From Candidatus Altimarinota bacterium (GTDB lineage Bacteria; Patescibacteriota; Gracilibacteria; BD1-5; UBA2023): a stretch of 64,000 bases of DNA. The DNA is taken from assembly GCA_013268835.1 (NCBI GenBank), contig JABFSX010000004.1:1-64000 (forward strand), given 5' to 3'. Below, one piece after another: positions 18,425 to 37,943 of the stretch. How positions within the stretch are numbered: position 1 is the stretch's first letter; every line of letters begins with the position of its first letter. The notes beneath the pieces are model-generated. The model ran no database searches and was not told where the DNA came from. It saw nothing but the letters and a program-made list of their open reading frames with translations. A program made the translations under genes and the position numbers.

Positions 18425-19120
18425 TTAAAGAATACCAATTATCTTGAGTTCACTATCTGAGAAAGTATAGAGTTTTGCTGGTCGTTTTGAATTCTCTGTA
18501 TCATATTCGTTCGTCTCGATGAGCATACCGAGGGAGAGGATTTTTTTACGAAAATTCCGCTTATCGAATGTTTTATCTAGTACAATCTCATAAACATTCT
18601 GAAGTTCTCTCAGAGAAAACTGGAGTGGGAGAATATTACGAACCACATTCGTATATTCCATCTTCCACTGAAGTCGTTGATAGGCATATTGGATAATATG
18701 TGCATGATCATAGGCAACCGTATCAGATGATATCTGATCGTACGGAACCAGTGCCACCTTCGTAAGATCAATACGAGAGAGAAAAGCCTGAGCCCCAACG
18801 AGCGTATAGTATGAACATGAGATCACATCTCCACGATCATCTCGATTATGTCCAGAAAAAGTATAGAGCTGTTCCTTATAGACCCCTGCGATATTCGTAT
18901 CACGAACCAAAATGCGATCCGCTGCTTCATCGAGTGTCTCGCCACGACCGATGATGCCACCTGGAAGTGTGAGTTTTCATTGCGCCCACTCGTTCCGACC
19001 TGGAACAAGTACAACACAGAGTTGATCCTTATAGAGAGTAAAAAGTACGATATCTACTGCAAGTACTGGAATAGATAACTTGAAGATATCATCCGTATAG
19101 GTGGGTTGAAGTGTGGACAT
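18425..19120 (-). CDS. nrtR: NrtR, Nudix-related repressor of NAD genes
   Basis: 231 residues with the NrtR two-domain plan: an N-terminal Nudix-like domain and a C-terminal winged helix. The Nudix box (LPGGIIGRGETLDEAADRIL) has lost the catalytic REUxEE pattern (RILVRD instead), as expected for a regulator that senses rather than cuts its ligand. The winged helix shows LPLQFSLRELQNVYEIVL, DKRNFRKKILSLG and RPAKLYTFS, typical of the family. Known NrtR proteins repress NAD biosynthesis genes and release DNA on binding ADP-ribose or a related compound. A 20-bp palindrome lies immediately upstream, so autoregulation is likely. Confidence 0.9.
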
Positions 19121-19794: not shown

Positions 19795-19813
19795 TATTGT
19801 ATATAATACACTT
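19795..19813. promoter_or_regulatory. NrtR-type operator upstream of the Nudix gene
   Basis: TATTGT-ATATAAT-ACACTT, one good half-site and one degenerate, with the standard 7-bp spacer, 13 bp before the start codon and directly against the nadD stop. Confidence 0.6.
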
Positions 19814-19814
19814 A

Positions 19815-20417
19815 TTAAACGGAATAAAAAAGGCGATTCTGGAGAATAAAATCACATACTTTTGTATGAATCATACTCCTGAGAGTCTCAATCCTCTCAG
19901 ATTCCCCACCAAGAATACGACGTACCTCTTCACGAACCCGAGTACTTGAGAATCCGCCAGAGACATATTCGAGTTCATCGTAATTAGAAACTATTCCCTC
20001 TGGAATAGGATATCCAGGGCGAGATATGAAAACCTTTGGAAGCTGGTGTGCCACATATCCACTTGGATCCCAACCCATCATCCGAGGAGCCACATCAGAT
20101 CCGAATACCTGTGGGATCTCTTTGTTATATTTTTCCTCGAGGTATCTCGCCTGATTCATGGTAGTAGTTGCCATATCCCCGTAGAGAAACGTCGTATCTA
20201 TGATTACATCTTTTCCGAAATCTTCAGTTGCAAGACGAATCATATCTTCACGCACCTCGTTGGATACTGAGGAGTAATCCTTGTCATCTCGCTTCCCTGT
20301 CGGGATGATGATGACCTTCTCTGCAACATTTGCAAGCAAAGTGGCAATGATACCAGTATGATCTTGGTGTGGTGGATTGAATGCTCCTCCGTACATAACA
20401 TATTCTTGTGAATTCAT
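19815..20417 (-). CDS. nadD: nicotinate-nucleotide adenylyltransferase (NadD-like)
   Basis: 200 residues, normal for NadD, which joins NaMN and ATP to give NaAD. GGAFNPPHQDHTGII is the nucleotide-binding motif, but the usual (H/T)xGH reads HQDH here, so the Gly is replaced. The C-terminal ISSTxxR motif appears as FSSTRVREEV, and DVAPRMMGWDPSGY occupies the substrate loop. The divergent motif leaves substrate uncertain, and the HAGH-bearing fused protein at 17-18 kb is an alternative NadD. Two operators lie upstream, tying it to the NAD regulon. Confidence 0.8.
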   Translation of the reverse strand: MNSQEYVMYGGAFNPPHQDHTGIIATLLANVAEKVIIIPTGKRDDKDYSSVSNEVREDMIRLATEDFGKDVIIDTTFLYGDMATTTMNQARYLEEKYNKEIPQVFGSDVAPRMMGWDPSGYVAHQLPKVFISRPGYPIPEGIVSNYDELEYVSGGFSSTRVREEVRRILGGESERIETLRSMIHTKVCDFILQNRLFYSV

Positions 20418-20429
20418 ATGATTTATATT

Positions 20430-20448
20430 AAGTGTTAACTATACACTA
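20430..20448. promoter_or_regulatory. NrtR operator 1 upstream of nadD
   Basis: AAGTGT-TAACTAT-ACACTA, a near-palindrome with the 7-bp spacer, 13 bp before the nadD ATG. Confidence 0.75.
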
Positions 20449-20482
20449 TATATATTCATATTTTTATTGAAGTCAAATTTAT

Positions 20483-20501
20483 TTGTGTATTTATTACACT
20501 T
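20483..20501. promoter_or_regulatory. NrtR operator 2 upstream of nadD
   Basis: TTGTGT-ATTTATT-ACACTT, centre 53 bp from the first site, between the PHP gene stop and nadD. Confidence 0.7.
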
Positions 20502-21493: not shown

Positions 21494-21625
21494 AAGCTAA
21501 AAGTTAAGATATAATACTAGGATATATAATATAAAATATATGCAATCACATAAGTACAATATGTAAAATATTATATTTTTATTATAAATAATTATTGATT
21601 AATAAAAGAATACTGATACTATATA

Positions 21626-21649
21626 AAGTGTAATCATAATAGTACACTT
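21626..21649. promoter_or_regulatory. widely spaced operator-like pair at the TrmB-like gene start
   Basis: AAGTGT and ACACTT in the same inverted orientation as the NrtR sites, but with a 12-bp spacer, directly abutting the start codon at 21650. The different spacing may mean a variant site or another protein. Confidence 0.5.
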
Positions 21650-22399
21650 ATGGATAAATATAAGAAAATACTTCAAAGATTTGGCTTGTCAGAATATGAA
21701 GTTCATATCTACTTGGCACTGTTACAGTATGGACCTCGTCATATCACTGATATTGCAAGAGATACTGGCTATCATCGACCACTGATATACAAGACGCTTC
21801 GTACCCTTCGTGAACGAGGATATATCACTCCCGTTCCTGGAAGTGGAAAACAAAAGTACTATCATATCACTGATCCGCAGTGGCTCAAAAAAGAAATCGA
21901 AGAATTCACAAAACAATCTGAACATATTATTGATGAGCTCAGTGGTATTTTTCACAAGAAAAAAGATCAACCAGCTCTCACTATCAAAGAATGAGTAGAA
22001 GAGATTCGTGCCATCCATAGTGACCTCGTGCATTCTCTCAAAAAATGAGATGTATACTATCGATATAGTTCATCATTCAGGAATTATAGCGACAGAAGCA
22101 AGTATGTTCCGAGTGACTATTTTCAACTCCAGAAAGACAAGGAACTCCATAGATACGTCATCACGAGCGAAGAGATGAAACAATATCGAGTATGAAATCC
22201 CCTTCGAGATGTTGTATCGATTCCTGAGGGATTTGATTGTTTCAATGATAATATTACCAAACTCATCTATGGTGACAAGGTTGCTATTATCGACTACAAC
22301 TCCCTATCAGGATGGATTATCGAGAGTGCCCGATTCGCAGAATATGAGAAAAAAATATTTCTGATGCTCTATAAGCTCCTCAAGAAAAGTGGGCAATAG
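21650..22399 (+). CDS. TrmB-like transcriptional regulator (copy 1)
   Basis: 249 residues. The N-terminus is a winged helix-turn-helix of TrmB/MarR character: LQRFGLSEYEVHIYLALLQYG, then DIARDTGYHRPLIYKTLRTL as the recognition helix, and a wing GSGKQKYYHI. The C-terminal half is a sensor-like domain of unknown ligand. It has a paralogue at 32.9-33.6 kb. It is on the plus strand, opposite the surrounding NAD genes, and its stop directly abuts the nadK stop. An operator-like pair precedes it, suggesting it belongs to the NAD circuit. Confidence 0.8.
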
Positions 22400-23223: not shown

Positions 23224-25044
23224 TTATGATAAAATTCTATTTTTGATTGTAGCATACTTTCGAGAAAAATACACACCATTTTGTGATTCTTCGAGGTCAT
23301 AACCAAAGGCTCTGCGACTCACTGTCAAGATCGGTGGAGCCTGAATCCTCTTGAAATAGGATATCTTGTAGTTCTTCCAGATTCGCTCTAGATCCGTGAT
23401 GAATGCCTCATTGGTAGGAAAATATCCATCAGGACCAATGATAGTTTTTGGAGATCCAATCATTGTATCGAGCGTTCATCTTTCGAGTGCCTCGAGGATA
23501 TCTGCCGGATCCTGACGCATCTCGATGAGTTGATACAGGAGCTTATCATGATATTCAAAAATGAATGGATCTCATTTTCCCTCATCTACTGCCTGATTCT
23601 TGGATAATTCTGCAGATGGCTTGATTTTACAGATTCTTGCAAGTGTTGGGAATTCATTTTTCTCTGAGAGATATTCTGCAAATTCGAATACCTGAGTCTT
23701 GTACAGATCTGCGATCGGTGCGATCGAACCATTTACGTCTCCATAGAGCGTCGCATACCCTTGTGCCACTTCGGTCTTGTTTCCATTGTTGGTGAACACG
23801 GCACTGAGTGTGGCAGCGACTCCAGCCAAGATACGAGAGCCACGATCACGAGCCTGGATATTCTCCTCAACAAGTCACTCCGTCGAAATCTGAAATACGG
23901 ATTCTATTTGTTCACGAGTGAAGTTCACACTTTCTTGAATCGGAATAATACGATAATCAATACCGAGTTCCCTTGCAAGATCTGATGCAAGTCACTTGGT
24001 TGTATCAGAATTATACTCACTTGGCATATTCACAGCAATCACATTTTCTCGACCGAGTGCGAGCACGGCGAGAGTTGCGACCACAGCAGAGTCAATCCCA
24101 CCAGAGAGCCCAATGACTACTTTTTTCTGTCCGATACTCTTCATAAAATCCCGAAATCCAGCGATGAGAGCGGTAGCAATCTTCTCGATTTCTCCTTCTC
24201 CATTCGTGATGGTTTCATCGATCTGAAACACTCATTCTCTGAATCCTGGAGCCTGAAATATCTTCTTACCGTCACGATATACCGGACTCGCCCCATCGAA
24301 TACAAATACATTCTTTCCATTGTTCTGAACTCCTACATGGTTCGCATAGATGAGATCGATTCCTTCACTCTGACGAGAGAGGAGTCTGTCTCGTTTTGCT
24401 TGTTTTCCGATTCCATATGGTGAAGCAGAGATATTCACGATCATATCAGCACCATTCTCCTTCAGGAGTTTCACTGGCTTGATCACATAGTCATCATCCC
24501 ACATATCCTCACAGATAATCACTCCGACCTGTCGTCTCACTCCATCGATAATAATCTCAAATGGCTGATAATACTCCTTCATATCACTCAGATTCTTCCC
24601 TTCCTCAAATGCTACATCTCGAAGCGAAGTAAAGTGTCGCTTGTCTCGAAACTCTCGATAGTTCGGCATCAGTGTCTTGATGATCGATCCATCTCAGAGA
24701 CCACCCGGAACAAGTACTCCATTCTGTGCAACGAATGCAGCATTGTACTTGCGAATTCGCCCATCCTCATTCACTCTATTTGCATCGGTCTTCACATTCC
24801 CCCATATTGCTGCAATCGCCTGACGACGAGTTGCCTCGATAATCTCACTATTCATCTCCTCACACTCACGAACGAAAGTATTGTTCTCCCACTCATCCCC
24901 GAGCATATATCCAGGAAGAGCCAGCTCAGGGAATACGACGAGCTCACTTCCCTGTTCTTTGGCGAGTTCGATATCTCGGAGTATTGATGTGAGATTCTTC
25001 TCTGGTTGTCCTGCTTGGACATTCATCTGTGAGATACTGATCAT
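23224..25044 (-). CDS. nadE: glutamine-dependent NAD+ synthetase
   Basis: 606 residues: an N-terminal nitrilase-type glutaminase and a C-terminal synthetase. Glutaminase: VVFPELALPGYMLGD, RDKRHFTSLRDVAFEEG and the Cys motif GVIICEDMWDDD near residue 178. Synthetase: P-loop VIGLSGGIDSAVVATLA near 312, YGDVNGSIAPIADLYKTQVF and IPSAELS-like IKPSAELSKNQ. It converts NaAD to NAD using Gln and ATP. Two TGAs fall on glycines in conserved segments. Two operators precede the gene; nadK follows in the same unit. Confidence 0.96.
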
Positions 25045-25057
25045 AGTATGAATAGTT

Positions 25058-25076
25058 AATTGTAAATATTACACTT
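25058..25076. promoter_or_regulatory. NrtR operator 1 upstream of nadE
   Basis: AATTGT-AAATATT-ACACTT, 13 bp before the nadE ATG, same phase as the nadD and Nudix sites. Confidence 0.7.
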
Positions 25077-25096
25077 AATATGGGAGGAAAATATAA

Positions 25097-25113
25097 GCCA
25101 ATGAATCTGGCTA
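25097..25113. promoter_or_regulatory. AGCCA/TGGCT hairpin between the two nadE operators
   Basis: AGCCA-ATGAATC-TGGCT sits centrally between the paired operators, inside a larger inverted repeat, ACACTTAATAT with ATATTAAGTGT. The pncA control region has the same arrangement. On the sense strand it is followed by a T/C-rich tract. Confidence 0.55.
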
Positions 25114-25119
25114 TATATT

Positions 25120-25138
25120 AAGTGTTATATATACACTT
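25120..25138. promoter_or_regulatory. NrtR operator 2 upstream of nadE
   Basis: AAGTGT-TATATAT-ACACTT, the most symmetric copy in the window, centred 62 bp from operator 1. Confidence 0.8.
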
Positions 25139-25175
25139 ATATTCTTTTGAGGAAAAAAGTCAAAAGAAAAAATAT

Positions 25176-27871: not shown

Positions 27872-29683
<1,812 letters not shown>

Positions 29684-31676: not shown

Positions 31677-31695
31677 AAGTGTATATTACACACTT
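31677..31695. promoter_or_regulatory. NrtR operator 1 upstream of prs
   Basis: AAGTGT-ATATTAC-ACACTT, 21 bp before the prs ATG. Confidence 0.75.
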
Positions 31696-31706
31696 TATTA
31701 TATATA

Positions 31707-31725
31707 AAGTGTAAATAATACAATA
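31707..31725. promoter_or_regulatory. NrtR operator 2 upstream of prs
   Basis: AAGTGT-AAATAAT-ACAATA, a good left and degenerate right half-site, centre 30 bp from operator 1. Confidence 0.55.
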
Positions 31726-37070: not shown

Positions 37071-37754
37071 TTAAGGGATAATTTTTACTGATTGGATTCG
37101 TCATTGCCTATTTGTTTTTCCATTAAGTGAAGCAAGATACCTGAGTGTTTCTTGATGTCATTCTACTGAGAGTCAGCGAGTGGCATCTTCTATGATCTCA
37201 ACATCGAATCATTCTTCGAGTGCATCGAGAACATTTCTTTTTACGCAGACTTCTGTAACGAGTCAGAATATTCTGAGTACTTGTATCTTATTTTGCAAGA
37301 GTACTTCTTTGAGTGTTTTTGCTCATGGAGCTACCTCGTATCCATCTATTGCATTTCCATCAAGTTTGGTAACTCCCATATCAAAACCTGAATATGCATC
37401 ACGATTTTTCATCCATCACTTATATATCTTCACACAATCAGCAGGATCAATGATTCATTCGATGAGTTCTATATCTTTTCATCTTACACTATGATCAGGC
37501 CAGAGGAGATCGGATGAATCATCTGGATTGAGAGGATTCTGAGAAAATACAGGAACTCACCATCTGGATGCAAATGAGATATGATTCTCTGGATGGAGAT
37601 CAACCGTATTGATAATCAGGAGTCCCCTGTCTCTTGCATCCTGAGTTACTCGATTTACCCCAGATACAACTTCCCTTCCAGCTTGTACGGGAAGTCATCC
37701 CTCAGGAGTAAAAGCTCCTTGTACATCAACTCTAAGAATTGCAGTATTATTCAT
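37071..37754 (-). CDS. pncA: nicotinamidase
   Basis: 227 residues. It deamidates nicotinamide to nicotinate. The catalytic Asp motif is ILRVDVQGAFTPEGGLP near residue 8, metal-binding residues lie in NTVDLHPENHISFAS, the substrate segment is LWPDHSVRGKD (usually WPxHCVQG), and the catalytic Cys is in GLVTEVCVKRNVLDALEEG. TGA encodes the Gly of PEGG, VRG and several other conserved positions, so the gene is invisible to a standard-code reading. It precedes pncB on the same strand, and two operators flank a hairpin upstream. Confidence 0.92.
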
Positions 37755-37776
37755 AGTATTAAAAATTAAGATATAA

Positions 37777-37795
37777 AGGTGTAATTATTACACTT
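37777..37795. promoter_or_regulatory. NrtR operator 1 upstream of pncA
   Basis: AGGTGT-AATTATT-ACACTT, 22 bp before the pncA ATG. Confidence 0.75.
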
Positions 37796-37814
37796 ATTAA
37801 TGGAGAAAAAATTT

Positions 37815-37829
37815 AGCCATCTTTTGGCT
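37815..37829. promoter_or_regulatory. AGCCA/TGGCT hairpin between the two pncA operators
   Basis: AGCCA-TCTTT-TGGCT, the counterpart of the nadE hairpin at the matching place. On the pncA sense strand it is followed by AAATTTTTT, so it has the form of a weak terminator in the leader if transcription starts upstream. Confidence 0.55.
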
Positions 37830-37840
37830 TTTCTTTTATT

Positions 37841-37859
37841 AAGTGTTTTATTTACACTT
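37841..37859. promoter_or_regulatory. NrtR operator 2 upstream of pncA
   Basis: AAGTGT-TTTATTT-ACACTT, centred 64 bp from operator 1. Confidence 0.75.
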
Positions 37860-37943
37860 GTAAATATATTCAAAAATAATATCCTGTCAAAAGAATTTAT
37901 AAAAAATCATTACTAATCAGCTCTCACAATTGATTTTACTATC

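Follow-up and report, generated by a model that had tools for sequence, protein, structure and literature searches.

Why should the leaders of two NAD genes, nadE and pncA, each have a second operator beyond the one at the promoter, and between the two a short hairpin and a T-rich tract? The question arises from the window, meaning here the whole stretch of 64,000 nucleotides that was analysed; its genes can be read through only with genetic code 25, in which TGA encodes Gly, the code of Gracilibacteria and Absconditabacteria. The assembly has a size of 1.36 Mb and is 94% complete; the closest named record that has a similar nadE locus is an uncultured Candidatus Gracilibacteria MAG (L027, 85% identity). 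A previous sequence-only reading, whose gene calls need this code as well, had proposed that the plan shared by the two leaders exceeds what repressor binding alone explains, and the present analysis agrees that repression at the promoter is not enough to account for it.

NAD genes, promoters and candidate NrtR operators

The minus strand of the window has a NAD cluster with nrtR, a Nudix hydrolase, a NadD-like adenylyltransferase, nadE, an ADP-ribosylglycohydrolase, prs, pncB and pncA; the genes needed for what follows are:

18425-19120, minus strand: nrtR, with Nudix and NrtR winged-helix domains, the presumed operator-binding protein (domain match)
23224-25044, minus strand: nadE, glutamine-dependent NAD synthetase (code 25 reading and domain match)
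37071-37754, minus strand: pncA, nicotinamidase-like isochorismatase-fold enzyme (code 25 reading and domain match)

As for the regulator, the sequence-only reading had named NrtR, and a profile search found the corresponding domains in the genome-encoded protein, NrtR_WHD (PF21906) with an E-value of 8e-24 and Nudix (PF00293) with an E-value of 4e-5. Both the nadE and the pncA leader have two 19-bp palindromes of the type AAGTGT-N7-ACACTT, with centres at 25067 and 25129 for nadE, 62 bp apart, and at 37786 and 37850 for pncA, 64 bp apart; these distances, and the AGCCA-loop-TGGCT element enclosed by each pair, are as they had been described. The candidate operators in the window are:

25058-25076, minus strand: nadE operator 2 (leader), a 19-bp palindrome reading AAGTGT-AATATTT-ACAATT on the gene strand
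25120-25138, minus strand: nadE operator 1, AAGTGT-ATATATA-ACACTT, overlapping the -10/+1 region
37777-37795, minus strand: pncA operator 2 (leader), AAGTGT-AATAATT-ACACCT on the gene strand
37841-37859, minus strand: pncA operator 1, AAGTGT-AAATAAA-ACACTT
20430-20501, minus strand: two nadD operators, one upstream of the -35 (20483-20501) and one over the -10 (20430-20448), with no leader hairpin
31677-31725, minus strand: two operators upstream of prs, with centres 30 bp apart and no leader
19795-19813, minus strand: operon-internal operator between nadD and the Nudix gene

Exact matches to TAAGTGT-N7-ACA number nine in the assembly, compared to five for the reversed pattern used as a control; because all nine fall in NAD genes of the window, the AAGTGT palindromes are very likely NrtR operators. 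The genome thus joins the two traits of an NrtR regulon, the protein itself and a palindromic operator limited to NAD genes, and NrtR is the likely regulator, predicted to bind these sites. In family f5, which belongs to another order, the operator half-site is TATTGT instead of AAGTGT. A separate pair of half-sites, ATAAGTGT-N12-ACACTTTAT, is shared by a divergent TrmB-family regulator and a PHP-domain gene (21610-21650 of the window); the half-sites resemble those of NrtR, but they are 5 bp further apart, and this could be the site of another factor.

Regarding the promoters, two were read from the sequence:

25136-25163, minus strand: nadE promoter, TTGACT-N16-TATAAG, with the -35 at 25158-25163 and the -10 at 25136-25141
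37863-37890, minus strand: pncA promoter, TTGACA-N16-TATATT, with the -35 at 37885-37890 and the -10 at 37863-37868

The nadE promoter is also kept in the relatives G008 and G012, and TTGAC-N16/17-TATA is found upstream of operator 1 in the window and in relatives. Whole genomes from the order and the class supplied leaders around nrtR, nadE and pncA; the systematic leader scan required TTGAC and operator 1, so the presence of a promoter in that set is not independent evidence, and the same leader plan occurs in relatives even when they were not selected for promoters. With the promoter located ahead of operator 1, everything from the hairpin through the T-rich tract to operator 2 belongs to the 5' leader; operator 2 would then be downstream of the transcription start as placed by the predicted promoter and, at 13-31 nt, a short way from the start codon (13 nt at nadE, 22 nt at pncA). 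The position of TTGACA/T-N16-TATA upstream of operator 1 also removes the earlier suggestion that the hairpin is a promoter element. A second promoter at operator 2 was considered and discarded, with no -35/-10 hexamers at the correct spacing there and the TTGAC boxes upstream of operator 1.

Other observations concern translation and gene content. In the stretches 37755-37776, 25045-25057 and 21494-21520 of the window, and in many relatives, no obvious Shine-Dalgarno sequence precedes the start codons; a pyrimidine-rich stretch similar to CTTAACTTTT stands shortly 5' of the ATG in several NAD genes and in the PHP gene. Finally, positions 27872-29680 encode a one-frame fusion of a nucleotidyltransferase with a dephospho-CoA kinase (CoaE) domain.

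A T-run in register with the leader operator

The sequence-only reading had placed a G/A-rich tract in both leaders. The tract is present, but, with nadE and pncA both encoded on the minus strand, it is T/C-rich on the coding strand and follows the hairpin; the sequence assigned to the pncA hairpin alone, AAATTTTTT, is indeed there, and it has a nadE counterpart, TATATTTT. What had been missed is that both end at a fixed distance from operator 2, -11 in pncA and -12 in nadE:

25088-25091, minus strand: nadE T-run, TTTT when read in gene direction, with its last T at -12 from operator 2
37806-37811, minus strand: pncA T-run, TTTTTT when read in gene direction, with its last T at -11 from operator 2

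A run of at least three T's ending exactly at -11, with a non-T at -10 and hence 10 nt before operator 2, was found at 39 of 44 operator-2 sites in 20 of 21 genera and in three families (f1, 10/14; f2, 21/22; f5, 8/8); when the same leaders were rotated at random 2000 times, the best count at any single offset averaged 5.9 and never exceeded 13. In 36 f1 and f2 leaders aligned on operator 2, T occupies -13, -12 and -11 in 34, 35 and 33 cases, respectively, and -10 is a non-T in 35; positions -9 to -5 have no conservation, which indicates that the T-run is not simply sequence that has yet to diverge. The register is kept at all eight pncA sites of f5 in spite of the different half-site, and three of these sites directly adjoin the stop codon of the upstream gene. 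The exceptions include nadE of the window, with its end at -12, and pncA of G010 and nadE of G046, where the T-run is missing; nadE of G046 is the clearest departure from the rule, and it has a strong TTTAGCTC...GAGCTAAA hairpin (L133:5531-5660; -14 kcal/mol, z -4.6) with no T-run at -11.

The T-run keeps its register over operator spacings of 62-282 bp, and with the start codon anywhere between 13 and more than 100 nt away. A role in translation was dismissed on this ground, the distance to the start codon varying widely while that to operator 2 is constant.

The same spacings bear on the looped repression complex that had been put forward earlier, in which NrtR dimers on operators 1 and 2 would pair and loop over the promoter, with the intervening sequence being mostly spacer. 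Two strong sites about six helical turns apart (62-65 bp in the window and its close relatives) fit with such a loop, and a two-site arrangement exists in the NrtR-family regulator AraR, with sites 3 or 42 bp apart (PMC4666351); however, the relatives have spacings of 62-69, 79, 81, 87, 90, 91, 107, 112, 124, 134 and up to 282 bp, in no helical phase. With such unphased spacing a loop is not required, and we consider it very improbable.

Orientation is the second property of the T-run. TTT is found upstream of operator 2 in 27 of 31 cases versus 1 of 32 on the downstream side, and operator 1 has it in 1 of 35 cases and on its far side in 3 of 33; it was not found at the nrtR operators of f5 either, and for this reason it was rejected as a general part of NrtR operators. 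Operon-internal operators often have a T-run, some of these T's being in the last codons of pncA, where they may be coding; at the internal operator 19795-19813, CTTTTTTATT ends about 10 nt upstream, at most 1 nt off the rule, within the last codons of nadD (19795-19825).

These counts weigh on the possibility that the T-tract, lying one turn before operator 2, extends the operator: NrtR would bind more tightly through contact with this DNA or because the flank is pre-bent, with no involvement of the polymerase. This would account for a distance that is fixed to the operator and independent of leader length and start codon, and the junction between TTT and the following non-T is as sharp as that of a protein contact; yet, a dimer that is itself symmetric and sits on a palindrome would be expected to work with a flank on either side, which is at odds with the one-sided occurrence of TTT, its absence from operator 1 and the nrtR operators of f5 has no place in this scheme, and the hairpin behind the T-run in f1 is left unexplained. 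We regard an extended operator as unlikely, if still worth keeping in mind.

The leader hairpin and its family-restricted occurrence

The hairpins of the two leaders of the window are:

25096-25112, minus strand: nadE hairpin, AGCCA-GATTCAT-TGGCT, lengthened by outer A-U pairs; G008 has the same loop and stem
37815-37829, minus strand: pncA hairpin, AGCCA-AAAGA-TGGCT

Their folding energies are -8.0 (nadE) and -6.6 (pncA) kcal/mol, with z-scores of -2.4 and -1.6. The GCC/GGC hairpin is limited to family f1, in which it occurs with its core before nadE (G008, G012), before pncA (G001, G003, G008, G010, G012, G018), before pncB (G022, G026; core shortened to GC/GC) and before a further NAD-cluster gene of G001 and G003, taken to be a putative short NAD synthetase, for which the domain query covered a 30-residue fragment. 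Read from the sequence, the pncB loop is a stable one of the YNMG class, either C(UACG)G or C(CACG)G. The loop and the flanks vary among relatives, as does the distance of the stem from operator 1, and the 3' arm (GGC) is fixed at about -23 to -21 from operator 2.

Conservation of the stem in relatives, proposed earlier as a check, is found in f1, with few two-sided changes, and not in f2. Stem arms were aligned alone, as MAFFT on whole leaders left the 5' arms unaligned; two of six pairs differ on both sides (A-U to G-C), a small number of cells is truly broken, and the nadE hairpin of G012 has a mismatch inside the core. Covariation is thus modest: the observed cell count was reached in 13 of 500 shuffles and the total pairing in 96 of 500. 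In f2, hairpins are weak or mostly no better than shuffles, and a general terminator hairpin was rejected for this family, the z-scores of the terminator part scattering around zero; by eye, no hairpin is evident upstream of three f5 sites. The hairpin is therefore optional. In G027, the 149-bp inter-operator leader (L129:6866-7157) folds into a long hairpin placed just before the T-run, unlike its relatives, with a z-score of -4.7 for the full leader.

Among the options listed by the sequence-only reading, a leader attenuator is closest to the evidence. In its simplest form, constitutive or acting as an RNA switch, the hairpin and the U-tract would terminate regardless of NrtR, and operator 2 would serve for DNA repression only; the f1 hairpin with its U-rich tract and the larger leader structures of G027 (L129) and G045 (L122) agree with this. 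When examined as intrinsic terminators, a stem and then a U-tract, the two elements of the window have only 5-6 bp with the energies given above, and f2 and some f5 sites are weaker or have none; f1 stems in general are of 5-6 bp and mostly -5 to -9 kcal/mol, against -16.4 for the hairpin and T-run of the atpC-pncA spacer. Much of f2 has no hairpin, no Rfam family and no supported alternative pairing emerged, and the constant distance of the T-run to operator 2 would have no explanation, so that an NrtR-independent attenuator appears quite unlikely.

As for a new NAD-related riboswitch, which had been envisaged too, or an RNA thermosensor, the leaders resemble the NAD+ riboswitches (nadA and pnuC motifs) in being leader RNAs of NAD genes, and differ from them in having no Rfam match and no aptamer-sized conserved structure. 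The stem is transcribed, as far as the promoter assignment goes, and partly conserved; some f2 genomes have long leaders, and GGTCACCTGCAAA is common to G032 and G038. Searches at the Rfam gathering threshold on the window and seven relatives' loci gave no relevant match, the only hits being two tRNAs in long-leader relatives; the element of the window, a stem of only 5-6 bp, is too small for an aptamer, and neither its stem nor its loop is maintained from one family to another, the stem being absent from most of f2. The long inverted repeat noted between the two operators does exist, but it is automatic with two complete palindromes; its flanks are no more complementary than in permuted pairs, and a closing stem made of the 3' half of operator 1, the 5' half of operator 2 and their flanks does not exceed permuted pairings, with no support beyond the operators themselves. 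An RNA sensor of this type is, in our judgement, scarcely credible. Separately, GGTCACCTGCAAA recurs in the long pncA leaders of two congeners (L126:6605-6873 and L128:3304-3590, with inter-operator lengths of 227 and 243 bp), within a region that is able to fold, and this is possibly a structured RNA or merely a sign of common descent.

A proposed repressor-positioned roadblock and its relation to known systems

The reading we favour, with slightly better than even confidence, is that NrtR on operator 2 is a roadblock, and that the stalled polymerase holds the U-tract in its hybrid, aided in f1 by the hairpin. NrtR would repress nadE and pncA twice via the two operators: on operator 1, in the -10/+1 region, it would block initiation, and on operator 2, once some 60 bp have been transcribed, it would obstruct the polymerase during elongation. 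Ending 10 nt short of this site, the T-run would lie in the RNA-DNA hybrid zone of the arrested enzyme, giving a weak rU-dA hybrid; in f1, the GCC/GGC hairpin would trail the expected RNA 3' end by 8-10 nt, which is the geometry of an intrinsic terminator, and it should hinder backtracking or promote release. The leader would then be a terminator that is efficient only while NrtR occupies operator 2, with read-through once NrtR is off. Known NrtRs are released by ADP-ribose or NAD, and control by an effector may be expected here.

That the T-run is tied to operator 2, on the approach side only, and is missing at promoter operators is explained most simply if it acts on the NrtR-arrested polymerase; operon-internal operators are also crossed by the polymerase and often have the T-run, and they were counted in favour of the roadblock. 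Regarding the arrest point, RNA polymerase comes to a halt 14 nt before the site of the static roadblock EcoRI Gln111 (PMC5499547); if this position, borrowed from EcoRI and not from NrtR, is applied here, the arrest would fall in the T-tract zone (-11 to -20). An Mfd TRCF domain is encoded in this genome and in most relatives (57/59), and no Rho was found in this 94% complete assembly.

Repression by roadblock is known for LacI, PurR, GalR, CcpA and CodY, and Mfd frees the polymerase that has stalled there (PMC10310618, a review; PMC4132739, a modelling study). The NAD leaders are similar in having an operator downstream of the predicted start, in the path of the polymerase, and Mfd in the genome; unlike known roadblocks, they have a conserved T-tract at a fixed register and, in one family, a terminator-like hairpin. 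The sequence upstream of a roadblock was mentioned as likely important, and only mentioned, in one of these works (PMC4132739), and the literature searched yielded no account of a comparable evolved sequence at a stall site. With described NrtR regulons (PMC6800001, PMC4666351) this system shares the winged-helix NrtR, palindromic operators with a 7-bp spacer, and operators at nadE, pncA, nadD, pncB, prs and nrtR; it differs in the sequence, AAGTGT-N7-ACACTT (TATTGT in f5), and in the systematic pairing of a promoter operator with a leader operator that has the T-run. Finally, a short hairpin with a U-tract in a leader is what intrinsic terminators and attenuators have, and termination caused by a protein at a poor intrinsic terminator, as proposed here, has a parallel in TRAP, for which a good attenuator hairpin is not required (PMC3913778); TRAP, however, acts from behind the polymerase while bound to RNA, whereas here a repressor bound to DNA in front of the enzyme would be the trigger, and the leaders can do without the hairpin.

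In conclusion, what remains as new is a roadblock stall site, as we interpret it, with a conserved U-tract, and in f1 also a hairpin, at a fixed distance from the operator. That a U-tract, with or without a hairpin, in exact register with the repressor site across a bacterial class lets the bound repressor turn a poor terminator into an efficient one stands, in our estimate, at an even chance; if true, this would be repressor-positioned, roadblock-dependent termination via a genetically encoded stall-site module. As far as we found in the literature searched, this mode of regulating NAD genes in code-25 candidate-phylum bacteria is undescribed. A T-run ending 10 nt upstream of an operator could serve as a signature for roadblock operators in other genomes, and the module would yield a portable part with tight off-states. 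For research on roadblocks, the interest lies in the fate of the stalled polymerase and in whether the sequence of the stall site decides between release and read-through; if roadblock operators come with a conserved natural sequence kept in exact register with them, this would demonstrate that the choice is written into the cell's own DNA.
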